Positions 864 to 52,669 of a stretch of 64,000 nucleotides of DNA are shown piece after piece. Location: positions 27,394,912 to 27,458,911 of the forward strand of contig CM051028.1 of assembly GCA_027627225.1 (NCBI GenBank), given 5' to 3'. The stretch is from Congeria kusceri (taxonomy: Eukaryota > Mollusca > Bivalvia > Myida > Dreissenidae). Below the pieces are notes generated by a model. The model was not told the origin of the DNA. It saw only the letters and a list, made by a program, of their open reading frames with translations, and searched no databases. Both the position numbers and the translations under genes were made by a program. Each line of letters opens with the position of its first letter. Within the stretch, counting starts at the first letter, position 1.

Positions 864-992
864 TCAAGATGAGTCCCCCTCCATTTGACTGGTCGGCTGG
901 GTGGTATCCATGGTACCGTAGGACTGGGCCAGAGTGCTGGAGGCAGATGGCATAGTACCCTGGGGCCCCGTCAGTACACTCGCCACGAATTG
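864..992 (-). CDS. TMEM63: TMEM63 exon 23: C-terminus and stop
   Basis: Acceptor TTTTTTCACAG at 994-993. Encodes QFVASVLTGPQGTMPSASST and on to GDSS, then TGA (866-864). 'QFVASVL' corresponds to the vertebrate tail 'KYIAQVLQ'; the rest is Ser/Thr/Gln-rich and probably disordered. Confidence 0.85.
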   Translation of the reverse strand, partial: QFVASVLTGPQGTMPSASSTLAQSYGTMDTTQPTSQMEGDSS

Positions 993-3900
993 CTGTGAAA
1001 AAATACTTGTACAATTAACTTTATTGCAATTATTGATCTTAAAAGAAATAAGAACTATAAATACAATTAAGTGGTTTACAGACATTGTTAAGTCGGTGTG
1101 AATGGCAATAACGATTGTTTTATATTTACATTTGCAACCTGTTTGGTCCAGATCAGCCTGTCAATCCATGCAAATTGACCTGGTTTTATATACAATATGT
1201 ACTTGAAATTGTCCCAACAAAACCACTAAGCTAGCTACCAATTTAGCAAAAGGCTAGTACAGGGGTGTGATTTAAGATTCAAAAACACATCATTTCTAAA
1301 CAGATTCATCAAAGTTTAAAGTACATAATTTATGCATATCTAGAAGAATCCCACTCCTGCTTTCATATAAATTATATAAATAACACAGGACCGAAAAGGT
1401 AAAATTTAACATAAGAAATTTTATATCAACCGAGGCGTAAACCAATATACAATTGTTGACAAGATTGGCCATTGGACATGGTCTGATCTTCACTGGATGA
1501 AAATCATGTTGACTGAGTTATTGTTATATAATGTATAAAAAGTTTTACTCGCAAAATCAATGAGCAGATAAACTTATTATAATCCAACACTGATCTGCTA
1601 TTCTATTTATCTCACCAATTCTGATAAATTCGAAAAATAACCAACTAAATCAAACGAAACACATAAAATGACGTCACAACAATCAACAAGATGACGTCAT
1701 TGCTGTTCGTAAACAGAAAAGAATGCTGTGCTGGTTTCACTGTTACTTGTACAGTTTTTAATGCACTTGCCGGGAACCAAAAGTTATATTCCACAAATCT
1801 ATTTTTAGCTCATATGACATTAATTTAGGTAAGAGTTCTGGTTCCTGTTGCTGTGTGAATTTTTTTTGTAGAAATCCACATATATATTTTTAGCCCATAT
1901 TAAGACCTGAGTTTAGGCCACTTTCATTGTTTGTTTGGATTTTTCGCCATTTTTAACAGTATTTGAGTCATATCACGTAAGTCACTTAACCTTCTCACAC
2001 TTTTGCTGGGCAAGCTTAGCCGATCTAAGCAGTTTACCAGTACTAAGTGCACATACCTATGCCAGTAACTGACAACTGCCCTACTTGAATCAGAGGTAGG
2101 GGGAGAATGGCCATAGAAATAATTTCATGAGCAATCACCACACAAGTTATGTGGCCGGGCTTGGGTTCCGAGATCCCCGGCTTGACAGTCCAGCGCTCTA
2201 CCAACTGAGCTAGCCGGGCCTGGTATTAAGCCACTTTTATATTCAGTCACCGGTGGCTATTCAGACCAATGGGACAGCGTCCATTTATAGATTATACAAC
2301 AATGATTCTTATCAAAAATGTATGACAAAATAACAATAATAAATAATATTAAGAACATTTAATTTACATTACACTTATTATATTGCAAACTTTCATATCA
2401 GCGCCATGACGATAAAGATTTCTGAAATCAACATTTTATTAATAGAAAACAACTTCTGTTTGAGCATGGTGACATGAAAAAATATCACCCTGTGATATAA
2501 CATTAGCTGTATAGACAAAATACATAGAGCAGTCACAGGAAGTATAATATTTTCAAAATACATAGAGCAGTCACAGGAAGTATAATATTTTCAAAATACA
2601 TAGAGCAGTCACAGGAAGTATAATATTTTCAAAATACATAGAGCAGTCACAGGAAGTATAATATTTTCAAAATACATAGAGCAGTCACAGGAAGTATAAT
2701 ATTTTCAAAATACATAGAGCAGTCACAGGAAGTATAATATTTTCAAAATACATAGAGCAGTCACAGGAAGTATAATATTTTCAAAATACATAGAGCAGTC
2801 ACAGGAAGTATAATATTTTCAAAATACATAGAGCAGTCACAGGAAGTATAATATTTTCAAAATACATAGAGCAGTCACAGGAAGTATAATATTTTCAAAA
2901 TACATAGAGCAGTCACAGGAAGTATAATATTTTCAAAATACATAGAGCAGTCACAGGAAGTATAATATTTTCAAAATACATAGAGCAGTCACAGGAAGTA
3001 TAATATTTCAGCAGCAGGTTTAATATAAATGAGGTGTGTCGTGGGAAAAAAGCGGGCTTAATGCATGTGCATAGTGTTGTCTCGGACTAGCCTGTGCAGT
3101 CTTCACAGGCTAATCTGGGATGACACTTTTTGCAAACAGTGGATTTATGTTTAGAAGAGACTTTCTTGAAACAGAAAATACCATAAAAGCGAAAGTGTCA
3201 TCCCGGATTAGCCTCTGCACAGGCTAATCCGGGATGACACTTTACGCACATGCATTAAGCCCAGTTTTCCCATGACACGCCTCAAATATTTTACCTGATT
3301 GGAGTCTTCCCTCTTGTTGGAGAGGCCTGTCTGCTCTTCCAGCTGCTAAAATGCCAAAGTTGTGGACATTCAGTACTTAGTGGGACACACATATTATTTA
3401 AGAAGCTTGAAGAGAAAATATCACACTACTAGTATAACTTTTCATGCAGGTTATATATTAATACAGTATTGATATTATAAGGCATGTATGTCTACGGCAA
3501 AATAAAATATCAAAATCATATGTAATGGGTATGCTTGAAAAGTAATGTCAGTTTTCTAACTTTTATTCATACAAACATTCTAGTAATGTTTTGATATGCA
3601 ATTTGGTATCAAAATCCATTGAAGTGATCGAGACTTATACATGTACCTATAACATATAAAAACCACAAGGCATACATAACGCTGGTTTGGGTATGACATT
3701 TTTTCTGATTTATCATGTTTTACCACATTCCCCCATTAAAATATCAAAAGATGATGTAGCATGCATGCATGAACTACATGTAAGAAGCAGCTTTATAAGC
3801 AAAATGCATTTTACCACATTTAAAACACATGTAGATAGTAACTGTAGCAGAAACATTTTGATTTCTGACATGATCTATTCAAATTTACCGCCGACCCTTA

Positions 3901-6900
3901 TAGATACTGTATATTTCCTATTTAATGCCCCTAGTTTAATTAATGACCACCAGTTTTTCTACAATACCCAAAACACAATGCCGCCATTTTAAACATTCAA
4001 GTAACGCACGTAAAACACTTATTTTTGTGAAACTTTGAAAGAAATGTTTGCAGAAGAGCCTACAGGTCTTTTTTTTTGTTGTAACATTTTTATTTCTGAA
4101 ATCAAACATTTTTACAGACATATTTACAAACATATAACATTTTGCAAATTGTGCTACAACAAACATGATTGATCACGGTTAAGATTTCAGAAAAATGTTT
4201 GTTTTTTTTAAGAGATGAAATTAAAAAATTGGTGGGTTCATACGGATGTATTTTCGAAAACGTTACTCCACCTTTGCCTAAAAAGATCGTGTGTGTATTT
4301 AATGAGTGATATTATTTCCTCTATTTTCAGTCACTGCGCTAAATAGCTCAAGTATTAGTTAAATAATGGGGTTACATTTTCACATTTGCATTTAAAAATA
4401 AAATAGCCTACAGGTCTTAATAGTCAAAGGACGAGAATTTGATTGAAGATAAATTTCTAATAGGCATTGTCTTACAATAATTAAACAGTACTGAATGTTT
4501 TGTTGTAGTGCAAGCCGCATGAATGTTCTTGGTTTAAAGAACTCTTATCTGCCAAAAAAATATATAATTTTGCATATATCCATTATTATTTTTTCATGTC
4601 ATAACAAAATTCTTTTTATTCTGCAAATAAAATGTATTTATTCCTACTTAAGGTAAATATGCCAGTCAAATTTGGAATTTCTTAAATCTGCCACAAACAA
4701 CTATGAGATGTCTTACAAATACTGGTATGTATTATATTATATTTTATGTTATGCTTTGTGACTGACCAATGAACAAAATGGCCACCACATGTGTTTATTT
4801 ATATTACTTACAATGTAAGTAACTCAAGAAACATAAAACATTTGTGAAATTCCTAAAAAGCTGCAGGGATTCCTAGCTTCAAGCTTTTTCAAATTTTTCC
4901 AAGGTACATCTACAAACCTTGGTGTCTGCCATGTTGGTATCGTTACTGGTGACAGGTTGTTCCACCATATTTAAATATAAATTTCATAATGTAGGTTACA
5001 CATAGGTTCACAATTAAAATAGCTTTTTTGGTGTTGAAAAAAATATAGAAAGATGAATGTGTAAACAATAATAAATAATTAAAACCTGTACAATATTTAA
5101 CATCCTACTTCTCATTTTAAGTTTACAAGTAGTTGTTTTTTTTATCTATACCATATTTCTAACATATCAAAATAACTGACTGAAAAAAATGAACTTGTGA
5201 CAATGGTAGGTATAAGTTTACTAAATTTAAACAATGTTTGACTATATTATACAATACCTGGTATCTGTTGGGGTTAAATGGAGTGATCGACTGGAAACAT
5301 CCAAAGCACAATTTCCCGAAAAACACCACAAGAATGATAAACAGGATGGCTGAAGAAAATATGAATATGGGCTGACCTGAACCTGAAAACGGACGAGAAA
5401 ATAGTGTTATTCAGAAATTAACATGACACTCATTATCAAACATGTATGTAGCGAAAGTAAGTTACCAGCAACATACCCCATTCTGTTAACATGTATAGTT
5501 CTTAATGTGTATTACTTATTTCATCTTATTAATGTTGGTCAATACCCATGACAAATGGCAACAGGCTGTGACACATGTGTACAAATTTACACAACCAACT
5601 TCACTAAAACAAGTTCTCAGAACACCATTCTAGCATAATATTCTGTATTTATCTTGCCATTACTCACTTCCTCTTATAACAGAGAAGAATACAAAGTTGA
5701 ACTGCAGAAAGATGACGGCGATGATGACGTAGTTGACGGCGGTGGAGTGAATGTTGGGGCAAATCTTTGACGGCTTGTAGGCAAAGTAGAGGTTGTACCG
5801 ATCCACCAGATGCTTGAACACCATGTACACCAGACCTGCGAACACGTACAATATATGTGGTGCGTCGTGAGAAAACCAGTCTTAATGCATGCGCGTAAAG
5901 TGTCGTCCCGGGTTAGCCTGTGCAGTCTGCACAGGCTAATCCAGGACGGCACTTTCCGCTTGTATGGTATTTTCTGTTTCAAGGAAGTCTCTTCTAAACA
6001 TAAATCCACTGAAGGCGGAAAGTGCCGTCCTGGATTAGCCTGTGCGGACTGCACAGGCTAATCCGGGATGACACTTTACGCACATGCATTAAGACTGGTT
6101 TTCTCACAACGCGCCACATATCATCCATTTAAAGCCAGGAGGTGTCATCAGTATATGTGCAAATAAGGCTGACTGCCCCTTCTGGCCTAAAAGAGATGAC
6201 ATATATTGAACATTGGTGATAACATGCAATTTGTAAATGGAAGCTGTCATTATTCACAGCTATTCTGATTATATGTGAATTCACAGATGCCTTAATGATT
6301 ATGTGCAGACTTTTCGTTGTTCCTTACAATTGTTCACAATATATTAACAATTATTTCATTAAGATCCTCCATACAGACACAAACGCATGAAAAGTATATG
6401 CACGAGTATAATAACATGATAGGCTCAGCCAAGGAGTGTTTACGCGTTCTCCACTATGGTCACCAAGTTCAGGTTCATTGTAGCATTAGAAGTAAGGCCC
6501 TGTGCCAATATTGCGCTATTTTTTATATGGGCAATATTTGCTGGACGGCCAAACCACCGAAGGACCAAAACTGTGGTGGAAAGTTGGCCCTATATGTCTA
6601 TAGAGTAACGACAGGATTTTGGTCGCTACTTTCAAGCGCTGAAAAGGCATGGTTAGCATTAATATTTCTTAATAAAATTTACATACCTGCAAAAAGAATT
6701 TATTCCTCAATAATGTTTCATAAATATTTGTATGATAACTACACACTTCCATTTTGGATGCAATACCAATTCAAACCTACACACTATTGCATTTTCAACA
6801 CATCTCACTGTCCTCCACTGTGTAAACTTTAATTGATATTCTGCTACACTGAAACGATTGCGTCATTTCAATTGGTCATTCAAATCTATCATTCATCATC

Positions 6901-9900
6901 CGATTGGTTGAAGCATATTTGAAGGGTTAAACAAGGCAAGGTAAACATGGCGGTCTGTAAATGAAAGTAGATTTATACAAAAGTTTAAATCTGATTTATA
7001 CGCATGTCCTAGGTAAATTTCGGCACATGTTAAGCAGTTAGGTGTTGTTTAAGTAAAATACATTAATGGGTAACTTATATTGTGCAAATAATGGAAATTT
7101 AAGAAATTTTAAACTTTCAGTTTTCCACCACGTAAAATGCCTTTTGGCAATGAGTCGTTACAGCGAATTTAGCCCAATCTGACAGACATTCCAAAAAGTG
7201 CCCGTCCGTCGGACCTGACCGGTGATTTTTGTATTGGTCCTGTAAAAATTAGAAGGTAGCTGGTTCGAATGTCCGACAATAATTGCCATCAACATAATGT
7301 TATAATACTTTAATCAGAAGGATGGATCGAAACATCTCTTGGAGCGACTCGTCTCGTTGCCATTCACTCTGAATAGGAAATGGTAAAAGTTATATGCACA
7401 CTGTACATCCGGGGGAATTCTTTGTTTTCATCCAGGTAACTCATGGTACAGAGAATTACCGAAACTAGGTCGATACGAAAAACCTAATTTGTTTAGATGA
7501 AAAGTATGATCTACAAAAGGCCATTGAATATAATTAAACAACACAAATTATAATAAAGTCCTTTCTTGTTTATACTTGCAGAGACTTTAACTAGAAATCA
7601 ATTATTCTATAGTTTGTTATTTGTTGTTAAACTTTAAATACTTTAAAAGTATTTACTAAAAATTTATTTCGGTTTTAAGTCGAACCGTACAGTTCTGGTT
7701 TTCTAAATTATTTTTGGGACAATGGTAAACATCGTCAATATTTGTGACTTATCATGAATTTATTACGTAATTTGAAGGGGCAAAACCTGGACTTAAAAGA
7801 GCTGGTGAACATGACAAAAAGGGAGATAAAAAAATTTAATAAAAAATTTAAACACACAGACCGGAAAGGTCATTTTTCACATCATGGCATTCCAATCGTT
7901 CATGGTTGGAGTTCGATGAATCACAACATCACATGACTTGCTCATACTGTGTCTTATTTTTTAAACCAACGATTCCTTGAAAGTGGAGGGGAATCAGTGT
8001 CTCCCCTGACAGCAGACTCTCAATGATTTCGATGCTCTGAGTGATGCAGATAAAGACCACTGGAATGACTTTGATGAAGAGATATTCAATGACGACAAAA
8101 TAATAACATTGTCAAAAGAAATCTGGAATCTAAAGAGTTTCTAATTACATGGCAATTATGAACGGAAATAAAGTTATAATATATTAGGATGTTTTATGGT
8201 ATTTGTTCGGTCCTGTGAAAGTACATTCGGTCCTGTGATTGTTACTGGATCACAGGACCGAATGTCCTGTAAGACTCCGAGTCTTTTCGGAATGTCTGCA
8301 ATCTAAACAAGTAGCACTAAATTTGCGTTTAACATCTCATTTATTAGACTAAGGTTCATTGTGACCAGAGCTAGGTTATGATTCAGTGAGGACTCACCGA
8401 ATGGTGTGATCACTGGGCACGATATGTTGTAAAGCTCAGGCATGTTATTAAAGCAACTCACCGAATGGTGTGATCAGTGGGCACAAGATGTTGTGTGGCC
8501 ATGGCATGTTTGTAAAGCAACTCACTGAATGGTGTGATCAGTGGGCACAAGATGTTGTACGGCTATGGCATGTTTTTAAACCGAATGGTGTGATTAGTGG
8601 GCACAAGACGTTGTACGGCTATGGCATGTTTTTAAAGCAACTCACCGAATGGTGTGATTAGTGGGCACAAGACGTTGTACGGCCATGGCATGTTTTTAAA
8701 GCAACTCACCGAATGGTGTGATCAGTGGGCACAAGATGTTGTACGGCTATGGCATGTTATTAAAGCAACTCACCGAATGGTGTGATCAGTGGGCACAAGA
8801 TGTTGTACGGCCATGGCATGTTTTTAAAGCAACTCACCGAATGGTGTGATAAGTGGGCACAAGATGTTGTACGGCCATGGCATGTTTTTAAAGCAACTCA
8901 CCGAATGGTGTGATCAGTCGGCACAAGATGTTGTACGGCCATGGCATGTTATTAAAGCAACTCACTGGTGTGATCAGTAGGCACAATAAGTTGTAAAGCT
9001 AAGGCATATTTTTAAAGCAACTCACCGAATGGTGTGATTAGTGGGCACAAGACGTTGTAAAGCTAAGGCATATTTTTAAAGCAACTCACTGAATGGTGTG
9101 ATCAGTGGGCACAAGATGTTGTACAGCTATGGCATGTTTTTCAAGTAGGGATGGGACCGAATACTGAAATAAATATCTGAATATTCGTTTAAGTTATTCA
9201 AATATATTCGAATATTCGTTTTGTAAATACTACTATATACTACTACATACGGCACTCTGTCCGAATATTTACCTATCCGAAATATGTATACTACGTGTAT
9301 GTAGTTGTTTTACCTTGTTTCAGTTGTAAATGAGCGATATAATTTAGTGAGTGTTAGGCAAATATAAAGATATGTATGATATTGTTAAATGTATTGTTAA
9401 TTTATTTGTTAATCGTTCCGTTTTTTTTTCTTCAGAACTATGCAGCTTGTATCTGCTGTGCAGATTACACGTTGCCTGGGTTTTGTCTAATGACCGCGTA
9501 AAGTACTTCCAACCACGTGATGAAGGCATTGTTTATTAATAAAGACTCTTGTATAATATATGGTGTTGATATAATGGATAATAATTTACAAGTTACGTAC
9601 AAGTGACGTAGATTAAGATTGACCAGATCATGCTAATTTTGTTAAAGAAATTGATTGGCTGATAATGGATTCATTTTGATTGGTTTACTTAGAGAGTAAT
9701 TGTAATTTACTGTAAGCAAGTTAACCGTATACATGTCACTTAAGGATAATGAACGACAATGTACGCCTTGTGCAAACTGTGAAACCGTTATCACAACATG
9801 GCCCAGTTTTGTTATTTGTGGTTACAATGCGTCATATTCGCGCCTCCTACAAACCGTTAATTCGCGGCCCTTGTAAAGACGTGGCCACTCTGCCAATTAT

Positions 9901-12900
9901 CAATTGTCGTTAATTGGACATGTTTGGCATGTGTTGTAAAAACGTTACACTGCCCACGCCCATCTGCTAGGCAGGAAATGCGACTGGAATTCATGTTAAC
10001 TTTGCAATCAAACTGGAAAAAAACATGATTTTTTTAAAGAAATTTGAAAATCGAATATTCATATTCGTTTTTTTATATTCGAATATTATCCGATATTCGA
10101 ATATTCGGTCCCATCCCCATGTTAAAGCAACTCACTGAACGGTGTGATCAGTGGGCACAAGATGTTGTACGGCTATGGCATGTTTTTAAAGCAACTCACT
10201 GAGTGGTGTGATCAGTGGGCACAAGATGTTGTACGGCCATGGCATGTTTTTAAAGCAACTCACTGAGTGGTGTGATCAGTGGGCATGAGATGTTGTAAAG
10301 CTATGGCATGTTTTTAAAGCAACTCACTGAATGGTGTGATTAGTGGGCACAAGATGTTGTAAAGCCATGGCATGTTTTTAAAGCAACTCACTGAATGGTG
10401 TGATCAGATGGCACAAGATGTTGTAAAGCTATGGCATGTTTTTAAAGCAACTCAATGAACGGTGTGATAAGTGGTCACAAGATGTTGTACGGCTATGGCA
10501 TGTTTTTAAAGCAACTCACTGAATAGTGTGATCAGTGGGCACCAGATGTTGTAAAGCTAAGGCATGTTATTAAAGCAACTCACCAAATGGTGTGATCAGT
10601 GGGCAGGAAACGCTGTAGGACATGATGATGGCAAACACACACAGGAACCAGGCGTACTGAACCCCATACTGGAACTCCCATATCACATGCTGGGAAATAA
10701 AAAGAAAAACACATATTTAATGTCATTGATTACTAATTTAAACTTGGGACAAAATAACTATCTAATGGTTGTAAGATGATTCATACAACAAGAGGGCCAC
10801 TATGGCCATAGGTCGCTCAACTGATATCTATGTATGAAGTTTCATTAAAATATCTCAATAGGTTTTCAAGTTATTGAGCGAAAACTGTTTTTCTATTTTT
10901 AGTAACAGTAACCTTGACCCCACCCACCACATACATTAAGCAAGGTCTAGATATAAGGTATCTACGTATGGAGTTTCATTAAAATATCTCAATGCGTTCT
11001 TAAGTTATTGAGCTTAAACCGTTTTTCTACTTTTAATAACAGTGACCTTGACCCCACCCACGCCATAAGAAAACCCAAGTGAGGTCTCGATATAAGATAT
11101 GTGTAATAAGTTTCATTAAAATATCGCAATGCTTTCTTTATCAAGTTATTGAGCGGACACTGTTTTTCTATATTCAGTAAAGTGACCTTGACCCCACCCA
11201 TCCCATATGCAATCCCAAGCAATGTGTTGATACAAGGTACTTATGTATTAAGTTTCATTAAAATAGCTCAATGCGTTCTCAAAATATTTAGCGGAAACCA
11301 TTTTTCTATACTTAATAATGGTGACCTTGACCTTGACCCCACCCAAAATGCAATCCCAATCGAGGTCTCAAAATAATGTATTTATGTGTTAAGTTTCATT
11401 AAAATATCTCAATACGTTCTCAACATATTGAGCGGAAACTGTTTTTCTATTTTTAGTAACAGTGACCTTGACAATGACCCCTCCCACCCCATATGCAATC
11501 CCATGCGAGGTGTCAATATAAGGTACCTATGTATTAAGTTTCATTAAAATATCTCAATGCGTTCTAAAGTTATTGAGCGGAAACCGTTTTTATATTTTCA
11601 GTAACAGTGACCTTGACCCCACCCACCCCATATGCAATCCCAATCGAAATATGAAACCAAATATGAAACCTCTGGGCCTTCTTTGTTTCAGAGAAGAATT
11701 TTAAAATCATTTTGCCATTTACGTCTATATAAACCATGTGAGCCCCGGGGTGTGCCCAGCTTTGACCCCAGGGGCATCATTTGAACAATCTTTATAGAGG
11801 ACCACTACACAATGTTACATACCAAATATAAAAAATCTAGGCCTTGAACTTTCAGAGGAGAACATTTTTAAAGTCATTTTGCTATTTAAGTCTATATCAC
11901 CCATGTGACCCCGGGGTGTGGCCAGTTTTGACCCCAGGGGCATCACTTTAACAATCTTTGTAGAGGACCACTATACAATGTTACATACCAGATATGAAAG
12001 CTCTGGGCCTTGCGGTTTCAGAGAAGATTTTAAAAGTCATTTTGCTATTAAAGTCTATAACATCCATGTGACCCCCCGGATGTGGCCAGTTTTGACCCCA
12101 GGGGCATCATTTGAACAATCTTTGTAGAGGACCACTATACAAAGTCACATACCTAATATGAAACCTCTGGGCCTTGCAATTTCATATAAGATCTTTAAAG
12201 TCATTTTGCTATTCAAGTCTATATAAACCATGTGTGCCCCTGGGTGTGGCCAGTTTTGACCCCAGGGGCATCATTTGAACAATCTTTGTAGAGGACCACT
12301 ATACAATGTTACATACCAAATACGAGACCTCTGGGCCTTTCAGTTTCAGAGAAGATTTTTAAAGTTATTTTGCTATTCAAGTCTATATAAACCATGTGAC
12401 CCCCGGGGTGTGGCCAGTTTTCACCCCAGGGGCATCATTTGAACAATCTTTGTAGAGGACCACTATACAATTTTATATACCAAATATGAAACCTCTGGGC
12501 CTTGCGGTTTCAGAGGAGAAGTGTTTTTAAGTCATTTTGCCACTCAAGTCTATATAAACCACGTGACCCCCGGCTGTGGCAAGTTTTGACCCCAGGGGCA
12601 TCATTTGAACAATCTTTGTAGAGGATCACTATACAATGTTACGTACCAAATATGAAACCTCTAGGCCTTGCGGTTTCAGAGAAGATTTTTAAAGTCATTT
12701 TGCTATTTAAGTCTATAAAAATGATGTGAGCCAAGGGGTGTGGCCAGTTTTCCCCCAGGGGCATCATTTGAACAATCTTTGTAGAGGACCTATACACATT
12801 GTTACATACCAAATATGAAACCTCTGGGCCTTGCAGTTTCAGAGAAGATTTTAAAAGTCATTTTGCTATTCAAGTCTATAACAACCATGTGACCCCCGGG

Positions 12901-15900
12901 ATGAGGCCAGTTTTGACCCCAGGGGCATCATTTGAACAATCTTTGTAGAGGACCACTATACAATGTCACATACCAAATATGAAACCTCTAGGCCTTGCAA
13001 TTTCAGATAAGATTTTTAAAGTCAATTTGCTATTTAAGTCTATATCACCCATGTGACCCCGGGGTGTGGCCAGTTTTGTCCCCAGGGGCATCACTTTAAC
13101 AATCTTTGTAGAGGACCACTATACAATGTTACATACCAGATATGAAAGCTCTGGGCCTTGCGGTTTCAGAGAAGATTTTAAAAGTCATTTTGCTATTAAA
13201 GTCTATAACAACCATGTGACCCCCGGGATGTGGCCAGTTTTGACCCCAGGGGCATCATTTGAACAATCTTTGTAGAGGACCACTATACAAAGTCACATAC
13301 CTAATATGAAACCTCTGGGCCTTGCAATTTCATATAAGATTTTTAAAGTCATTTTGCTATTCAAGTCTATATAAACCATGTGTGCCCCTGGGTGTGGCCA
13401 GTTTTGACCCCAGGGGAATCATTTGAACAATCTTTGTAGAGGACCACTATACAATGTTACATACCAAATATGAGACCTCTGGGCCTTGCAGTTTCAGAGG
13501 AGTAGATTTTGAAAGTCATTTTGCTATTCAAGTCTATATAAACCATGTGACCCCGGGGTGTGGCCAGTTTTCACCCCAGAGGCATCATTTGAACAATCTT
13601 TGTAGAGGACCACTATACAATTTTACATACCAAATATGAAACCTCTGGGCCTTGCGGTTTCAGACGAGAAGTTTTTTAAAGTCATTTTGCCACTCAAGTC
13701 TATATAAACCACGTGACCCCGGGGTGTGGCAAGTTTTGACCCCAGGGGCATCTTTTGAACAATCTTAGGAGAGGACCACTACACAATGTTAAATAAATCA
13801 TGTGAGCCAAGGGGTGTGGCCAGTTTTGACCCCAGGGGCATCATTTGAACAATCTTTGTAGAGCACCACTATACAATGTTATATACCAAATATGAAACCT
13901 CTGGGCCTTGCGGTTTCAGAGGAGAAGATTTTTTAAGTCACTTTGCTATTCAAGTCTATATAAACCATGTGTGCCCCTGGGTGTGGCCAGTTTTGACCCC
14001 AGGGGCATCATTTGAACAATCTTTGTAGAGGACCACTAAACAATGTTACATAATAAATATGAAACCTCTGGGCCTTGCGGTTTCAGAGGAGAAGATTTTG
14101 AAAGTCATTTTGCTATTCAAGTCTATATAAACCATGTGACCCCCGGGGTGGTGCCAGTTTTGACCCCTGGGGCATCATTTGAACAATCTTTGTAGAGGAC
14201 CACTATACAATGTTACATACCAAATATGAAACCTCTGGGCCTTGCGGTTTCAGAGGAGAAGATTTTGAAAGTCATTTTGCTATTCAAGTCTCTATAAACC
14301 ATGTGACCCCCGGGGTGTGGCCAGTTTTGACCCCAGGGGCATCATTTGAACAATCTTTGTAGAGCACCACTATACAATGTTATATACCAAATATGAAACC
14401 TCTGGGCCTTGCGGTTTCAGAGGAGAAGATTTTTTAAGTCACTTTGCTATTCAAGTCTATATAAACCATGTGTGCCCCTGGGTGTGGCCAGCTTTGACCC
14501 CAGGGGCATCATTTGAACAATCTTTGTAGAGGACCACTAAACAATGTTACATACCAAATATGAAACCTCTGGGCCTTGCATTTTCAGAGGAGATTTTGAA
14601 AGTCATTTTGCTATTCAAGTCTATATAAACCATGTGACCCCGGTGTGTGGCCAGTTTTGACCCCAGGGGCATCATTTGAACAATCTTTGTAGAGCACCAC
14701 TATACAATGTTATATACCAAATATGAAACCTCTGGGCCTTGCGGTTTCAGAGGAGAAGATTTTTTAAGTCACTTTGCTATTCAAGTCTATATAAACCATG
14801 TGTGCCCCTGGGTGTGGCCAGCTTTGACCCCAGGGGCATCATTTGAACAATCTTTGTAGAGGACCACTAAACAATGTTACATAACAAATATGAAACCTCT
14901 GGGCCTTGCGGTTTCAGAGGAGAAGATTTTGAAAGTCAGTTTGCTATTCAAGTCTGTATAAACCATGTGACCCCCGGGGTGGTGCCAGTTTTGACCCCTG
15001 GGGCATCATTTGAACAATCTTTGTAGAGGACCACTATACAATGTTACATACCAAATATGAAACCTCTGGGCCTTGCGGTTTCAGAGGAGGAGATTTTGAA
15101 AGTCATTTTGCTATTCAAGTCTATATAAACCATGTGACCCCCGGGTTGTGGCCAGTTTTCACCCCAGGGACATCATTTAAACAATGTTTGTAGAGGACCA
15201 CAAAACAATGTTACATACCAAATATGAAACCTCTGGGCCTTGCATTTTCAGAGGAGAAGATTTTGAAAGTCATTTTGCTATTCAAGTCTATATAAACCAT
15301 GTGACCCCCGGGGTGTGGCCAGTTTTGACCCCAGGGGCATCATTTGAACAATCTTTGTAGAGGACCACTATAGAATGTTACATACCAAATATGAAACCTC
15401 TGGGCCTTGCGGTTTCAGAGAAGAAGATATTTAAAGTCATTTTGCTATACAAGTCTATATAAACCATGTGACCCCCGGGGCGTGGCCAGTTTGACCCCAG
15501 GGGCATAATTTGAACAATCTTTGTAGAGGACCACTAGAGGATGTCAGATATCAAATATGACAGCTCCAAGCCTTGTGGTTTCAGAGAAGTTTTCAGTTTT
15601 TAAATCTATTTTTAGCTCTGGTGACCTACATATGCAGCGGACCAAAACGATTTGAACAACTTTGAAAGAGGGTCACCCAATGATCATTTCTGTGAAGTTT
15701 CATGAAAATCTGCCAAGCGGTTTAGGAGGAGATGTCGATTATATGAAATGTTGACGCACGACCGACAAAAGACGATCACAAAAGCTCACCATGAGCACGT
15801 TGTGCTCAGGTGAGCTAAAAAGGGCATTCTCAAAACAAACACTGGTTCTATCCAGCAAAAGGACTTAGAAATGACTCAATCAGTTTCAATTTTGTGTTCC

Positions 15901-18900
15901 CAATAAAACAAGCTGAAATAACTAAGTTAAAACTTAACATATTAAAAGTTAGTCAAGAGACTTTTTTTTCAGGTATCTTGACAATCATCTACTTTTCATG
16001 CAACAAAGTCCAATATGTATACCAATAAATAACATGTTTATCCTGTTACACAACAAATACTATTGCAGACACGTAATTATAATGCAGAAAATGGCGAAAT
16101 GATTGTTTAAGAGGAATAAAATTAATTCAACTAATCCTACTCTCACCTTCCTGACGGAGGTTCTCTCTGCGGAGGATCGCGCCATGAGGATCTTCACGCC
16201 GTACATAAAGAGTTCCGAGAACCGCAGCAACTCCAGCGCCGTGCCAATGAACGCAGACGTGATGATGTAGTTGATGAAAAATGCACCGTTTCCAGACAGG
16301 AAGATGCAGCTGCCGATAAAAATGTGTTGTTTTTTCCTCAATTGTCAATGGATGTGTGATTAACCAGCAGAGCTCCAGATAAGAGCGGTATTTGTGTAAA
16401 TACCCTTTAAAATATTGCAAATACCCTTTAGAAATTGTAAATAGGGGGTACTAGTACCCTTTAGAAAGTGTAAATAGGGGGTACTAGTACCCTTTAGAAA
16501 TTGTAAATAGGGGGTACTAGTACCCTTTAGAAAATTAAAGTGGGGGTTATGGCTAACATTGAAAATGTTGCCAAAAACTTATTAACTTTGATATACAAGT
16601 TTCTTAATGTATCTAATTAAACACTGATAGTACTTTACAATATTAACATGCACATTTATATACTTCTTACTTAATAACATGGGATTAAAATACCATTATA
16701 GGCCCACTCCTATCTGAAGCTCTAAAAATACCCCTTTACGATTCTCCAATACCCTTTAAAACTGATGGTCCCTGGGTAAAATACCCTTTGACAAAAGAGG
16801 TCAGTGGGTACAGTACCCTTGAGCGTTAAACTTTATCTGGAGCCCTGATACCAGATTACTGTTTCCATGGTTTAAGCAGGTCTTTCATCGATTGACTGAT
16901 TGATTCAACTCAAGCCGCAGCTAACAAAAATGAAGCATTATTACTGACCGTGAATTAAACTTGCATTAAAGCAAACTGATTTTGTACCGTTTTGATCATA
17001 ATACTGGGGTCTTATTTCCAAAGCAAAACGAGATTCTGTGTTTGATAAACACACATGCCCCCAGTTGGTGCTGGGTAGCCCATTTTTAAGTCCAAATTAG
17101 GTCAAGGTCAAAGTGAGGTTGGGTGATATGGGTGGATTGGGAACGGTCAAAAGTAACAACTGAGTAAATATGGAAGTGTTGTAGTAAGCGGTGTTGGTGC
17201 TTGACGAAACGGTAAAATCTAGTTAACCAAGAAATGGCACTTTAGAATTATTATAAGTCCAAATTAGGTCTAGGTCAAAGTAAGGTTGGGTGATATGGGT
17301 GGATAGGGAATGGTCATAAGCAACAACTGTGTAAGTATCAAAGTGTTGTAGTAAGCGGTGTTGGTGCTAGACGAAACGGTAAATCTACTTAACCCTGTCA
17401 CGGACGGAAGGACGGAAAGACGAAAGGACGGACAGGACGATCACTATTTTATGCCTCCTGCATCAAGTGGAAGGTGCTGGGAGCATAAAAACATAAATTT
17501 CTTATAATCATAAATTCCTTAAGTCTGTGGCTTTTTTATGTCTAGGGTGATTTCCATTAAGACATACAGTCAAAATGCGATACTGCGAATCACGATACTA
17601 CGAAAAGACGGGATACTACGAATAAGGCTGTCGGTCCCATCCGTTTTTCTTATATGTTTAACTAACAAAAGATGCGATAGTACGAATTTGCGATACTGAC
17701 AAAGATGCGTTACTACGAACAAATTTTCCAGTCCCGTCATTATGTGTGCATTGAAATCTTAACCAATACTACGATTCATATTGTCAAGGAGACTTTTCGC
17801 ACCTTAATTCTGGATGAAGATTTCACACATCTATCGGGTCAGACACCTAGCCAGTTTGTTCGCATTATGCTCAAAGAAAGTTGTTACAGGTTTAGTTACA
17901 CCTAAAGCCAGTCTAAATGGTGCAGTGTGAGATTTGACTTAAAAACTTTTGCGTTTGCTGATAATATGATATTGCGAAATAGATTATTGTGCGCAGATTT
18001 TATACTTTAATTATATTTTTCTTTATAATGCGAACACATACACAAGTGTTTGTAAAATGTAATTAGCTAAATAAGTGCATTAATGTTTGTTAACGCTACG
18101 ACATGACATGCATAATAACACTTCATGTGAGAAGTAAACGTCACTACCGTAATTGCTTACAGATGCGATACTACGAAAAACGCGATACTATGAAAAACGC
18201 GATACTGCGGACAAATCCATGTCTTCCATGCCTTTTCGTACTATCGCGTTTCGACTGTATTCGTCTGATAGAGATTAGATGATATTTTACCACAGTTTTT
18301 TCATACTATTTATTAAATTTCAAAATTAAAATTCATTCCAAAATGTTCACTTAGGCATACTGTTAAGTTACGGTTTTTATTAATGGATACCATACCTACT
18401 TACTGTTACTCATCAACATTTATCTATTGATTAAAAGTACTGATTATTGCCATATCAATTATCTATAGCCTTATTTTTCTACATTACACTCACTCAAATT
18501 TTAACTCACAACAAGAAAACTGTTTTCTCATTGTTGTTATGGTAAATTTTGCTTTAAATGCAACAAAATTTATACGTACCCCCAGTTAATATTCTTCCCA
18601 TAGTCCCTCAGAAAGATGTCAAACAATGCACTGGCACTGAAAATGGAGAAAATATTGAACAAATGAAACTACAGATGGGAAATCTTTCTAATTCTCTTAT
18701 TGAATTAAAATACATAAAGCATACAGCAGTTGGTTGTGCTAAATACTATTCAAACAGCATGACAACTAAATTTTGTAATGTTTATGCATTTAACATGAAA
18801 GTATATTACTTTAAACGGACCTGTACACAGATTGGCAAATTGACAATTTTCAAAATGTGTGTCCTAGATCACAAACAGAAAATGACATTATATAAATTAT

Positions 18901-21900
18901 AAACAAGCAAAATAACACTTCTGACAAAGGAATATATATGAGGGGCGTCGTGGGAAAACCGGTATTAATGCATGTGCGTAAAGTGTCCTCCCGGATTAGC
19001 CTGTGCAGTCCGCACAGGCTAATCCAGGACGGCACTTTCCGCCGATAGAGGATTTATGTTTAGAATAGACTTCCTTGAAACAGAAAATACCATAAACGCA
19101 TAGCGGAAAGTACCGTCCTGGATTAGCCGGTGCGGACTGCACAGGCTAATCCGGGACGACACTTTACGCATATGCATTAAGACCGGTTTTCTCACGATGT
19201 GCCACATGTATATAGGAAATATAGTGTCGTTAATAGATACTCGTTAACTGAAATGGATAAATTATAAAGCATTTGTAAAGCTTTTCATCGAAATTGTGGA
19301 ACACAAGTACCACCTTCAAAGAGTTAAAAATTCACTGCTATTTAGTAAGTCAGAATGACCGAGTGGTTAGATCGTCAGTTTTTTTTTTCCCGCAGGTCGT
19401 AGGTTTGAGCCCAGGCGAAGGCAAGTTTTGTATTTACTTTTTGTTTTCCGTATTTAATATTTGTTATTTGTTAGTTCAGATGCTTCAGATTTTGCAGTTA
19501 AGAGATTTAATGGATTTTTTTTTCCAAAATACGTAAAATCTGTGAACAAGTCCCATGCTACTAAGTAAGGTACATGGTAAATTGCAACAAGATTCTGTGT
19601 TTTATCAACCCAAAAGCCCCCGGTTGGTGCTGGATAGCCCATTTTTTAGTCCAAATTAGGTCAAGGTCAAAGTGACGTTGGTTGATATGGGTGGATTGGG
19701 AACTGTCATAAGTAACAATTGTGTAAATTTCTAAGTGTTATAGTAAGCGGTGTTGGTGCTAGATGAAATGGTAAAATTATTAAAAGTCCAAATTAGGTAA
19801 GGTCAAAGTGAGGTTGGGTGATATGGGTGGATTTGGGATGGTCATAACCAGCAACTGTGTTAGTATCCAAGTGTTGTAGCAAGTGGTGTTGGTGCTAGAC
19901 GAAAAGGTAAAATCTTGTTAACCAAGAAACATCCCATTTGAATTATTCTAAGTGCAAATTAGGTCAAGGTCAAAGTGAGGTTGGGTGATATGGGTGGATT
20001 GGGAACGGTCATAAGTAACAACTGTGTAAATATACAAGTGTTGTAGTAAGCGGTGTTGGTGCAAGACGAAACGGTAAAATCTAGTTAACTAAGAAATGGC
20101 ACTTTTGAACTATTATAAGTCCAAATTAGGTCAAGGTCAAAGTCAAAGTGAGGGTGGGTGATATAGGTAGATTGGGGATGGTCATAAGCAACAACTGTAT
20201 AAGTATCCAAGTGTTGTAGCAAGCAGTGTTGGTGCTAGATGAAACAGTAAAATCTAGTTAACCAAGAAACAGCCCATTTGAATTATTCTAATTGCAAATT
20301 AGGTCAAGGTCAAGGTCAAAGTGAGGTTGGGTGATATGGGTGGATAGGGAATGGTCATAAGCAACAGCTAAGTAAGTATCCAAGTGTTGTAGTAAGTGGT
20401 GTTGGTGCTAGACAAACCGGTAAAATCTACTTAACCTTGTCACGGATGGACAGACGGACGGACGGACAGGACAGGACAATCACTATATGCCTCCCACATC
20501 AAAATGCCGGAGGCATAAAAACGTTCTTAACGCTTAGGCTGATTACTGTACAAAACTAAATAATAAGCATACCCACTTAAATCATCATAAATGATAATGT
20601 AATTACAAGCAACACAGTACAGGTAAATTAATATCACTCATTGCGTGCTTTAACTAAGAGAAAGTACCATATTTAATCTATGCTTTCGGACACTATGTTT
20701 TCGGACACCCTCAAAATCAGCAAAAATAATCATTTTTCGTGTCCTATGTTTTCAGACAAGGAATTAATTTAAATCGTCAAAAATAATGATTTTTCGTGTC
20801 CTATGTTTTCAGACAAGGAATTAATTTGCTATCTATGTTTTAGGATACTTCAAGAAAAGAAATTTATTTGCTATCTATGTTTTTGGGCCACTTTAAGGAA
20901 AGATATTAATTTGCAATCTATGTTTTTGGACACTTTAGTAAAGGAGCTGATTTGCTACCTTTGTTTTTGGACACTTAAAGAAAAGTAACTAATTTGCTGT
21001 CTATGTTTTTGGACAATTCCAGAAAAGGAATTAGTTTGCTATCTATGTTTTTCTGTCACTTTGAGAAAAGGAATTTATTTGCCATCTATTGGGCATGTAA
21101 AACCCATTTTAATGGCTTCAATATACCATCTTGTGTCATAAATAAACATATCCAGCGATAAACATACATGTAGATGATAAACATAGATAACTGTACTGAC
21201 AAAAGTGTCCCTTATTTGCAATTTTTACGACCTTAAAATAAAATATTTTAGATTCTATGTTACAGATTTCAAACAAATAATTTTTAGAGATTCAAAATTT
21301 TTCGACACTGAAGAAATAATAACAATTTTTAAGTGTCCGAAAACTTATATTAAATATGGTATGCTTAACTTCCGGATAAGCACCCATCAACGATATTACC
21401 TTGTGAGGCCCAGTGATGGCAGAATCAGAATCATCAACAGCAGGAAAACAAACGTCTTCTGCATCACAGCATGATGCTCAGAACTCCTACAACAACAACA
21501 GCAATATTTCAAATGGTGAGCCTTAAAACACACAAGACAAAATGTGTGTTTGTATTTTTGGAAAGAACACAAAGGACTGATTTACATATTCCACATTTCA
21601 AATAACTGCTTGGGATGGGGTGGGTATAAAATGGAATAGATTATAACATCGAGCCTGTCGCATGAAACCTGCAGACAACTTCTGCATGTGGTCTTTAAAT
21701 TTATACAAACAATGAAATAACATTCAGCGAAACTCTCCAATGTTGGTTAAGAACAGGCAATCATTATCATTAAATTAACTAATACAAGTAATATTTGATG
21801 TTCTCTTTAAGGCAATTTTTATTCACTCTTTTTCTTCACATTCATGTACACATTAGTCATGTCTTTTTTTCTTTTCTTACAATGATATTACTTGTACATA

Positions 21901-24900
21901 TAACAGCTTGTCCCTTAGACTGTGTATGCCTAAAAACTGAACAATGAAAGCCAATCATAGCTGATGTGTACCAACTCATTTCATTAGTCAATATTTTAGG
22001 TTAAGATAAATTTAAGATTGAGAAGTCAGGTCCAATGGACTGAGTAGTTATGGGCCCACGATATTAAATCATGGTCACTTTTTTGAACTGACCGTGTCCA
22101 GTGTCCCACAAACTGGTCAGCAAAGGCCACGACATTGGGCAGCAGGGCTGTGAAAGTCCACAGGAGCAAGGTGGGCAGAAACTGGATCAATAGGGCACTC
22201 TGCAACAGAAATAGAACATAGAACTAAACACATGAAAGTCCACAGGAGTAGGGTGGGCAGAAATTGGATCAACAGGGTACTCTGCAACAGAAATAGAACA
22301 TAGAACTAAACACATGAAAGTCCACAGGAGTAGGGTGGGCAGAAATTGGATCAACAGGGTACTCTGCAACAGAAATAGAACATAGAACTAAACACATGAA
22401 AGTCCACAGGAGCAGGGTGGGCAGAAATTGGATCAACAGGGTACTCTGCAACAGAAATAGAACAAACTAAACACATGAAAGTCCACAGGAGCAGGGCGGG
22501 CAGAAACTGAATCAACAGGGCACTCTGCAACAGAAATAGAACATAGAACTAAACACATGAAAGTCCACAGGAGCAAGGTGGGCAGAAACTGAATCAACAG
22601 GGCACTCTGCAACAGAAATAGAACATAGAACTAAACACATGAAAGTCCACAGGAGCAGGGTGGCAGAAACTGGATCAACTCTGCAATGGGAATACATGTA
22701 AATCACAGGACTGAACATACATGTATGAGGAGCATCAACAAGGAATGTGGAACAAATGATATTTGATGTGCTTTCTGAAACTACTTTACTTTTAAACAGA
22801 TCAAGCTAACTAAAGCACTAATTTGTGTAATAAAACAATCTTTGTTTGTTTGTTTGTTTGGATTTTTCGCCATATTCAACAGTATTTCAGTCATATAACG
22901 GCGGTCAGTTAATTTACTCACACTTTTCCTGGGTAAGCTGGTTTACCAGTACTAAGTGCTCACACTTATGCCAGTAACTGACAACTGCCCTACTTGAATC
23001 AGAGGTAGTGGGAGAATGGCCGTAGAATAAAACAATCTGAGTAACATAATGATATCATAGTATTCAAATGTCAAAGGTAATTATTGATGTTTCAAATAAA
23101 CTGGAAGTTAAAGGGACTTGTTCACAGTTTGGCAAAATGACAATTTTCAAAAAAATTGTCATAGATTCAAAAAAGAATGTATGCATTATATTCACACAAG
23201 CAAAATACCACTCCTGACTAAGAAAAATGTTAAAAAGATATGTTCGTTTATTTATAATCATCAATCGAAATTGGAAAAATAATAAAGCGTTTGTAACGCT
23301 TTTCATAGATAATTTAGCAAAAACGTGTATTACCGACATAGCGTTTAAACTGCCATCCAAAATCAAAAGCCTGCGTGGTGTAGTGGTAGCGCGTTAGATT
23401 TTGCTTCTAGGGGTCCCGGGTTCGAACCCCAGGGCAGGCACATTTTTTATTTTTATCTTTTTCCTTGTTATTATAATTATTTAAAACTATTCCAGATATG
23501 ACAGTTTTGTAAGTAAATTCATTTAATGACATTTTTCAAAAATACGAAAATCTGTGAACAAGTCCCTTTAAAACCATCTTATTACTTTAAAAAAATAAAT
23601 GTTATACAAACACCGGGATGTGGAAAAATAAGAATCTCCCCAACTAGATGGTGAGAAATTATTTAAATACTGGTACAACTAGGATCATACCCCAGTTTCT
23701 TCAATATATGCCTTGTAGTTCAGCTTATCCAGGTTGTTAAGGACGATGGCAGGCGTGGTGAAGAAGAACAACAGAATGATGACGAGGAAGTTGATCAGGA
23801 TGGTCCTCACCCACCGCCCCCACCCATACAGCTTCAGCTTTGCCCTGCAAATAAGTCAGAGAAAGCAGTGTGCACACTATCCTGATGGTGCAAAAATATA
23901 CCCTAATTCAATGAAAATCTAAATTTGACTATCTGGTATGTTTATAAGTGAAATTATATGGGACCATACAGCTTCTGCTTCCCTTTGCAGAGCAAAAGGT
24001 GTGCAGAATATCGTGGTAAGGCAGAACTTAGGACAAGAACAATGTACACAAGGGGCTACAGAAAAGGAGCAGGTAAGGCAAGCCAGATCAGCTCTTTCAC
24101 ATTCTTTAAAATAATTTGATAATTTCAGGTTGTTGTTTATATCTTAGTAATGCTTCTAATTAGCTTTTTTACCATGGTACCTTCATTTGTCATTGCATAT
24201 TGGCAAAAATACATTAAATTTCAAAAGAGATTCAACATTCCCCTGTTGACCAGCTCTGTGGGCTAGCAGGGGGAACCAACAGGAACAGCTGAACCCGGCC
24301 AGCTCAGTTGGTAGAGCGCTGGACTCTCAATCTGGGGTTTGTGAGTTCGAGCCCCAACCCGGTCACATAACTAGCGTGGGGATTGGTCATGAAATAATTT
24401 CAACGGCCATTATCCCCCTACCTCTGAGTAGGGCAGTTGTCAGTTACTGGCATAGGTATGTGCACTTAGTACTGTTAAACCGCTTAGATCGACTGAGCTG
24501 CCCAGGAAAAGTGTAAGTAGGTTAACTAACCGCAGTTATATGACTGCAATACTGTTAAATACGGCAAAAAATCCAAAGAAACCAACAAAAACACAGTGCA
24601 ACACCCTGCTATTTCGCTCTAGATATTTCTCTCACTGGTGCAACCCAAATTTAAAGGAACGTAAAATCAACTCTTTTTTGTTTTTCTTGTTTAATGTGAG
24701 ATTACTTTGGATTATGAATATTAGAAACATATAAATGTAAAGGTTATTTTGATAAATTATTATTATTTTCACATAACACAATTATAACTACAGTATGTAA
24801 CATATTTTATGTTGACAGCCTAGGGAACCTAACAATTTACATTTACGCTGTCTACATGTCGCTCCCAAAAACTGAAAGAGAGTAGCCGTCTGTAGACAAA

Positions 24901-27900
24901 GGTTACATACCAGTAAATGTTCTCAGGGGCGGGTGCGTAGGACACCTCCCACTCTACAACGTCCAGCTCCACGTGTATGGTCGAGGGCTGGGGATTTTGG
25001 GAAGCCTTGCACGACGGCTGGAAGTCATGCCAGATCCTGCAACAATTAGAAATGTAAGAAACTAATGTTAATTGTTAACCCCCAATTAATTTCGTCACAC
25101 GTTTGCTCAACATAGCTTAAATCTGTGTAATTAGTAATGCAAATCATGCTTCATGTTAGTGGCTGATAGCTTTTATCTACAATCTACTGCCAGTCGTGGA
25201 TATAATAATATACAATAGTGCTTTTTTTAAATATATGAATACTAAATGACTGCATTGAACAATGAACTTACTGACAATCTTTATTATTGATTGTCAACCG
25301 AATTGTTGAAGAAATAGTACTGGTATGTATGTTCAAGCGTAAATACACTACACCTCGCGTGGTGTTTGCCTACATCCACGCATCATCGCATTCTACTGCT
25401 GAGGGAAATTCCACACTAGTCACCATGGAATCGTGCGATTTCATGGAACACGAGGACATTGCCGTGGAGAATCGCGGTGATACCATTTTGATTAAATACC
25501 GATAAGAAATCGCAGTGGATCCCCGCGGTTATCAGGGATCAAATACAGTGGATCCCCGCGGTTATCAGGGATCAAATACAAAAACAAGACAATTTAAGCA
25601 TAAAGCAATGTACCGTTAATGTGTAACCTATACTGTTGTAGCACTGTATGTACATGCATGTACCTTTTATGATTATTAATTTGCTTACTAGTATGTGCTT
25701 TTTTTATATTTCAGGTACACAGAAAACTATACTGTTATTGTACAGTTATCATCATTAATATACATTGATTGTTTGCGAAGTTTACAATTTAAAGCCTATG
25801 ATTTAGTATATTATGATGTTTACGTTCATTTATGTTGAATAATGAAGTATAATACATAGAGCTACTTTATTTTGCCGGTATTAAGATTAGTTTACAAGTA
25901 TTCCAGAGACGCTAATTTTATAAAAACAAGAACTTAGCAAGTCGGATGTGTCGTCTACGATAAGAGCAATTATGCCAAAAACTGAACTTGACCTTCCTTT
26001 TATGCCTACTAACACTTCCATAAAGTTTCATAATGATTGCATAAAAGCTTCTTAAGTTATTGTCTGTACAAGCCTTAACTGAACTTTCTTTATTTTTAAA
26101 AAGGGCATAACTCAAGTACGATAAGAGCATTTATGCCTGAAAATCGAACTTAACCTTCCTTTTATGCCTACTAACACTTCCATAAAGAAACACTTTTTAA
26201 GTTATTGTCTGCACAAGCCTTATTTAAACGATTTTTCATTTTTTAAAAACGTTTGCAACAATTATTTCCTTTTTTTTCCGACGACAGATTTTCACAAGCA
26301 TGTGTTAATGTATCTTAAAACTAAAAAGTCTTAAAAAATAGGGGTCACCGGCCTTGTTCCAGAAATGTTGGGGTTTAAATACCGTACCTGTCGAAGCCCT
26401 TTTTTCAGTTTGTGTGACTAGCAATGTTCCATTATATCAAGCGTTCATATTCAAACAAGGACGGAGATTTTTAAATGCATCTGTTTTAATGTTTCGTTTG
26501 GCAACATACAAGTGGAGTTTAATGATAAAACGTGCTTTATCAATAGTCACCATTTAAACAAATGACTTTTAATGGACACTTAATGAGGTTAATTATGCAT
26601 TTAATATGCCTTTGACAACATCAATAAATAATCAAATATACGAATATCTTTTGTTCCAAACGACAGATTTTGTTTAAAAATTCCATATACATGTGTCATT
26701 GTATACTGAAACTAAAACAGTGTTAACAAATAGGGGTCACCGGCCTTTTTCCGGAAAGATTGGGTTATGAATACAGTACCTGTCGAAGCCCCTTTTTTCG
26801 GTTTTGATTTTTTATCAATGTTTTAAGTATATAGGAGCTTTTTTCAAACAAGCTTATGGTTCTTTCTACTGATATGTTTTCACATGTCTTGTTTGGCAAT
26901 ATAAAAGTGTATTTTGGTAATATAAAAAGCGCTTTACCTTTAATTAGTGATAAAATAATGAATTTGGCAGGACATTGAAGTAGGTCAAATGGGTACTAAT
27001 AATACCTTCTGAAACGTCATTTATTATGCATCAATATATTTTGTTTCAAACGACAGATTTTCTTTAATTTTCGCCCATACATGCACCAATGTATACTTAC
27101 ACCAAAACATTAATAAAAAGAATGGGTCACCGAACTTGTTTTGGAATATTGGATTTTAAATATAGGATCTGACACGAGTTGTCATTTCATACCATATTTT
27201 ATTAAACTCGTCCAGGAAATTCGTTAGTAAGCTCGCCAAAGACACAGCTACATAACTTAGCAACAAATTGTTAACTGAGATGACAAGTGCTTGCATAATA
27301 GTCCCTACCGTAGGATATTCGATGTCAATCCGTAGTGCGTAGTTTATGTGGTAAAATCGTAGCAAATACGGACAATCTGTAGAAGTAAACAGGTCTGCAT
27401 CCATTCAAAAGAAATGGACAGAGAGAGAATGCTTTAATTTGTGAATGGTCCACAATGTATTTGGAAAAATTTAATTTCAATAGGAGCCATAACTCTGTCA
27501 ACATTTGTGGTTTGTAACCAAAGTTGAACTTGATCTTTATTTTGTGATGTTACACCTATGTACCAACGAGTGTCAGATCTTTTTAATTACATGCTTTTAA
27601 ACGAACATAAAATGTCTAATTTTTACAAAACACATGTTGATAAATCCTAAAAGTTGTGTATTGGCATGACGTCATTTCATGTTGACGACGTCATTTCACC
27701 AAAATAATTTCATGCGATTAGTCAGTCACAAAATATGTAGCCAATGAAAACGCTCAAAATGTTATCTTACACATGTGCGTTTGAGTAATTATTAAACAAT
27801 ACATGTATATACGCACGAAACTTTAGTGCTATTAAGCAATCGAAAAAAAATTAGCAAACAAACATTATCGTCGTAATCGTAACAGTAAATGTCAACACTA

Positions 27901-52556: not shown

Positions 52557-52669
52557 CTTGAAGCGAGAAGGTTTCCGTCAACGGCTTCAATATGACACTG
52601 ATGATCTGGTTAAGACAGGCACCTTGTCAGCAGGCTGGTAAGAAGTTCTGAAGGGGCATTTTGACTCAC
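52380..52669 (-). CDS. TMEM63: TMEM63 exon 1: 5' UTR and residues 1-59
   Basis: Coding part is 52556-52380. The ATG has A at -3 and an in-frame TGA lies eight codons upstream (52580-52578), which supports this start. Residues 1-45 are hydrophilic with two sequons, NET (N21) and NKT (N36), fitting the extracellular N-terminus of the family. The conserved YGGIPETLVIN begins the first membrane helix. The donor is GTAAGT and phase is 0. On the 5' side a TTATCATTGCAG acceptor predicts an exon start at 52669, so a non-coding first exon should lie further right. A 10-codon upstream ORF (52659-52627) would then sit in the 5' UTR. Confidence 0.9.

Follow-up and report, generated by a model that had tools for sequence, protein, structure and literature searches.

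Tandem copies of a splice donor in a TMEM63/CSC1-like gene of the bivalve Congeria kusceri

A 64,000-nucleotide stretch of the genome of the bivalve Congeria kusceri (contig CM051028.1, positions 27,394,912 to 27,458,911, forward strand; hereafter the window) contains one exon end and its 5' splice site amplified into a long tandem array, which raises the question of whether so many donors within one intron reflect selection on splicing or ordinary repeat growth. A TMEM63/CSC1-like gene lies on the minus strand of the window, and its rough joined translation matched CSC1-like protein 2 in PDB (8ehx, E = 8e-124). A protein search, in which 7996 candidates were scored and 650 proteins fell below 1e-20, returned the Dreissena polymorpha protein 'calcium permeable stress-gated cation channel 1-like' (P0001) as the best relative among the best 120 of the 650 that were listed. 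With P0001 as guide, a model of 23 coding exons was obtained in which the 5' end is not fixed, all 22 introns are GT-AG, and 705 of 819 aligned columns (86%) are identical to the D. polymorpha protein. Exons 19 and 15 of this model are exons 18 and 14 of the initial annotation, which had been made from the sequence alone, and the coordinates of all features are collected in Table 1.

Exon 19 ends at 10584 with ...CCA TTT G followed by GTGAGT, and when joined to the next exon (GLVYMVFK) it is collinear with both the D. polymorpha protein and CSC1-like protein 2; the collinearity with P0001 indicates only that the true exon 19 junction is the coding one. The repeat unit lies across the exon-intron boundary, as the array segment 10122-10605 contains the junction 10583/10584. 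Counting the real junction there are 20 units of 64 bp, two of them in the distal half irregular (60 and 56 bp), and 19 are intronic copies. The splice signal is carried by most units: 17 of the 19 copies have an intact GTGAGT, which with the true site makes 18 occurrences on the minus strand between 8390 and 10620, and of the two copies without it one reads TTGAGT and the other lost the motif through an 8-base deletion. The coordinates, the 64-bp period and the count of about 20 units, some 19 of them intronic with the exon end and GTGAGT, had been given correctly in the initial annotation and agree with Tandem Repeats Finder (TRF; 8392-9145 and 10122-10605).

Regular copies read TTCA/GTGAGT, CTCA/GTGAGT or TTCG/GTGAGT. 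The weaker A at -1 is found in nine copies, namely the eight nearest the exon and the one at 8525 (TCA/GTGAGT, once TCA/TTGAGT), and distal copies read TCG/GTGAGT. Occurrence of TTCG and TTCA among the copies, with TTTG in the exon, would fit CpG decay. A recursive splice site, which calls for AG directly before GT, was rejected, as none of the regular copies has this arrangement.

The array is divided by a 976-bp insert with inverted ends, possibly hAT-like and not mentioned in the initial annotation; a 75% match to one of its ends occurs elsewhere in the flank. Searching the 1.549-Gb genome with the D. polymorpha protein (25 candidates scored) placed the gene in a single location, with all 17 matches inside it, and no paralogue or haplotig was found among them as a source of the array. 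A genome DNA search with a 501-base piece of the array (2 candidates scored) gave three matches, all within the donor array. This search skips very common words, and with that limit it found no other genomic place, which led us to reject a dispersed satellite that contains the exon end by accident. Long tandem arrays can be mis-sized in assembly and the copy number could be off, but an outright assembly artefact is very improbable, given that the units differ from one another, an unrelated insert lies between them, the contig is 94 Mb long and two other genes carry such arrays.

We read the donor array as neutral minisatellite growth at a junction, with a probability of about 0.8. A 64-bp segment over the exon 19 donor, with about 22-34 exonic and 30-42 intronic bases, would have been duplicated in tandem and would then have expanded, through slippage or unequal exchange, to form an ordinary minisatellite. 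The copies carry a donor because the founding segment included the junction, which makes this a 'mirage' array in the sense introduced for amphioxus (see below). The spliceosome would normally keep to the exon-proximal donor, and the array itself would probably evolve neutrally.

The pattern of identity among units is consistent with such a history. The 18 internal copies are on average 91% identical, and neighbours are more alike than distant copies (Mantel P = 0.007). Identity is lower for the true-junction unit: 80-88% with 18 of the 19 copies, and 69% with the copy at the distal edge, whose own sequence diverges beyond its donor. Higher internal identity with divergent edges fits turnover that spares the edges, and the array thus shows the concerted evolution inside and spared edges that characterize mirages. 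The initial annotation had also described a codon-compatible variant of the exon upstream in the copies. A match is present there, but it is weak, covering 7 of 12 bases (shuffling P = 0.012; about 0.01-0.02), and 50 of 2204 exonic 12-mers match equally well; it is suggestive of a founder that reached to -34, short of proof.

If the donors had been retained for a function, the splice motif might be expected to stand out from the rest of the unit. The initial annotation had raised one such function as a possibility, a selective role as a splice-factor sponge, and the 17 GTGAGT copies beyond the true site are what speaks for it. In a comparison of 17 decoys, which left aside the copy at the distal edge and the one interrupted by the insert, a single mismatch fell in the donor hexamer; 13 of the unit's 59 hexamers, this one among them, are conserved at least as well, so nothing indicates that the donor in particular is being retained. 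A weaker A at -1 stands in 9 of the 18 copies that have a base there, and one of the nine also lacks the GT. Moreover, 19 sites per transcript are trivial beside cellular U1, a stoichiometry unfavourable for a sponge. We therefore regard this role as having almost no likelihood, and the proposal was not upheld.

Donor and acceptor of this one gene have each founded a minisatellite, as the initial annotation had recognized, and both arrays are real. At exon 15 an 82-bp array repeats the acceptor, with TTGCAG kept in 5/5 complete upstream units, and use of each of these five decoy acceptors is predicted to stop at residues 542-546 of 818. For the donor array, 17 decoy positions were evaluated in the coding frame, all of them in regular units and one the TTGAGT copy; each is predicted to end the protein with PFGELL and a stop at residue 665 of 818, in agreement with the earlier claim that any downstream donor would read PFGELL and then stop. 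Estimates of the duplex with U1, made for the true donor and the 17 regular copies, gave -8.8 at the true donor. Among the copies, eight distal ones scored -9.0, eight with A at -1 scored -5.3, and the TTGAGT copy scored -2.3. With 17 intact GTGAGT copies, eight of which scored as complementary to U1 as the true site, the locus offers a clean natural experiment on splice-site choice.

These predictions also bear on the possibility of poison splicing, in which the decoy donors, and the decoy acceptors of exon 15, would send an adjustable fraction of transcripts to a premature stop and array length would set TMEM63 output. All 17 donor and five acceptor decoy positions are predicted to give premature stops, and in the duplex estimate eight distal donors pair with U1 no less strongly than the true site. 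The stops are weak support, because stops are the default when intron sequence is read; in addition, conservation at the donor does not exceed that of the unit at large, and crossing arrays are near a matched null in unrelated genes (see below). We consider poison splicing improbable, and neutral growth remains our preferred account of the donor array.

The initial annotation knew of no named class for such arrays, and one exists. Tandem repeats that span exon-intron boundaries, both 5' and 3', have been named 'mirages' in amphioxus, where RT-PCR (reverse transcription PCR) suggested that they leave regular splicing undisturbed (PMC3087553). They affect the genes for Adh3, the globins BflGb6 and BflGb9, troponin C and PGBD5 (PMC3087553, PMC3902484), and in lancelet PGBD5 repeats of 60 and 108 bp lie over 5' and 3' splice sites of the one gene (PMC3902484). 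The C. kusceri arrays resemble these cases: the unit lies over the boundary, and PGBD5, like TMEM63 here, has both splice sites affected. The present case differs in its bivalve host and in the transposon-like insert within the array. It also differs in copy number, with 19 copies here versus 3 and 6 in the two BflGb6 haplotypes. Mirages are already known in lancelets, and the TMEM63 array is a bivalve case with more copies than the globin example. No bivalve mirage was found in the limited set of literature searched, and the accessible portion of the zebra mussel genome paper (PMC9210306) has nothing on such arrays. Papers on decoy splice sites, on multiple donors and on bivalves or other molluscs added nothing further of use.

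A human minisatellite with multiple splice donors, in the gene 6-16, was reportedly described by Turri in 1995. In this gene, also called IFI6, the minisatellite lies at a donor and two downstream repeat units serve as donors, with isoforms as the result (PMC4526556). The likeness is that a minisatellite at a donor offers several donor sites, as in the TMEM63 array; the difference is that the IFI6 repeat donors yield isoforms, whereas every TMEM63 decoy position tested is predicted to lead to the premature stop given above, so that protein isoforms would not be expected from use of these downstream repeats. Introns are also said to have been gained through tandem duplication of splice signals, with Rogers (1989), Zhuo (2007), Gao and Lynch (2009) and the potato RdRp gene as reported examples. 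A duplicated segment with splice signals is common to those cases and to this one, but in TMEM63 the donor copies are intronic, and the protein keeps its collinearity with P0001. Internal tandem repeats at exon-intron boundaries are further described as altering gene structure in human segmental duplications (PMC2812944). The cases there are recent paralogues with repeats retained in exons or forming novel introns, whereas the TMEM63 gene was found once.

The initial annotation had named an overlap of arrays with junctions no commoner than expected as a refutation of its reading, and in the local sample assessed here the matched counts were near chance. Tandem arrays occupy 39,028 of the 284,000 bases (~14%) of the window and its surroundings, in 128 merged arrays. 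Within the gene span, a founding-unit null for 37 arrays of any period gave 1.95-2.49 expected crossings versus 2 seen. A matched, one-sided test was made with arrays merged and pseudo-junctions set in the same DNA. For the TMEM63 gene, crossings were found at 2 of 44 junctions versus 1.64 expected (P = 0.49) and near-junction starts at 5 of 44 versus 3.49 (P = 0.27); for other genes the corresponding figures were 2 of 43 versus 1.13 (P = 0.31) and 4 of 43 versus 2.39 (P = 0.22). The 43 junctions comprise 22 from a DNAH-like, 10 from a TXNDC16-like and 4 from a FEZ-like gene and 7 from six single coding segments, with exon edges set by eye from homology or by coding score plus GT/AG signals. 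Five of the single segments gave one edge and 217353-217463 gave both, and 267861-267583 was left out for its unclear edges. The null for this sample came from the 284-kb contig (2.6% per junction; 1.4% from L044 alone and 5.2% from L045 alone), which has few genes, and most of its other coding segments are weak or repeat-like and were left out. The density of arrays is enough to account for the counts, so an excess of crossings is possible and not demonstrated.

Several observations weigh against neutral growth. In this gene, the 12 short-period arrays of three or more copies should give 0.18-0.36 crossings under the founding-unit null and gave 2 (Monte Carlo P = 0.016). Of 28 short-period arrays, 9 come within 120 bp of a junction, compared with 3.0 expected (P = 0.0018). 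Because these subsets were picked post hoc, both values are given little weight, and the matched test weakens them, yet its sample is small. The weaker exon-proximal decoys could, in addition, reflect selection. The two post hoc values also speak for a mechanistic preference for tandem duplication at or near junctions in this genome, for example through slippage or R-loops, and arrays that start 10-24 bp from the donors of TMEM63 exons 3 and 6, a DNAH donor and a FEZ-like acceptor point the same way. The merged matched tests gave no significant excess at the 44 and 43 junctions, either of crossings or of near starts, and we judge such a preference unlikely.

Crossings in total were found at 4 of 87 junctions in three genes, two of the four being the TMEM63 arrays. 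On another contig, the exon of a DNAH8-like gene that starts at L045:5094 is preceded by about five copies that read CTCCAG/GCTCTGG or near variants. A TXNDC16-like gene (Pfam PF24509, E = 4e-5, below the family cut-off) some 50 kb left of the window has its acceptor repeated in a 44-bp array of ~14.7 copies; this crossing covers just five or six exon bases, and the AG is altered in several units. With four arrays found among three genes of a single bivalve genome, the phenomenon may stem from high minisatellite density rather than from lancelet biology or selection on splicing. We tentatively propose, at somewhat less than even odds, that junction-spanning minisatellites may be a regular component of this genome and cross a few per cent of its junctions, so that many genes would splice correctly despite near-perfect decoys beside the real site. 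If so, these arrays would let one ask, with many copies in a natural setting, what beyond the local splice-site sequence guides the spliceosome among equal sites, and they would form a reservoir for new introns.

Table 1. Features of the TMEM63/CSC1-like gene (window positions) and related arrays elsewhere in the genome.
Feature	Position	Strand	Basis or remark
TMEM63/CSC1-like gene, 23 coding exons	864..52574	-	model guided by P0001
Coding exon 19; last 22 nt within array, weakly up to ~34 nt	10584..10689	-	gene model, register comparison
True 5' splice site GTGAGT of exon 19	10578..10583	-	phase and collinearity with P0001 and PDB 8ehx
64-bp donor array, proximal half, including true junction	10122..10605	-	TRF, 7.6 copies
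64-bp donor array, distal half	8392..9145	-	TRF, 12.0 copies
976-bp insert, inverted ends sharing GGGATGGGACCGAATA	9146..10121	.	splits donor array
Coding exon 15; first 49 nt within acceptor array	22093..22199	-	gene model, TRF
82-bp acceptor array: true acceptor, 5 complete upstream decoys and a partial unit	22151..22679	-	TRF
38-bp array, begins 12 bp from exon 6 donor without crossing	40358..40577	-	TRF, gene model
Acceptor array of DNAH8-like gene, 95-121-bp units	L045:5084-5584 (G000:C1:51461001-51467000)		
44-bp acceptor array of TXNDC16-like gene	G000:C5, about 27346118-27346764		left flank of window

Other arrays lie close to junctions or within the same genes. The 38-bp array near the exon 6 donor is adjoined by a 24-bp array at 40287-40384, and a 25-bp array of 33 copies at window positions 36945-37778 is open in all three minus-strand frames. 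Another array starts 24 bp after a DNAH donor without crossing it, and the FEZ-like intron (PF07763) has arrays 18 and 42 bp from its two ends, neither of which crosses; the intron of this gene, at G000:C5 about 27520136-27521485, is mostly filled by 20-bp repeats. Finally, two dynein-like frames with equal scores, each 506 aa and stop-free, were noted at G000:C4:78971807-78973261 and 83294863-83296317, and are possibly duplicated intronless copies.

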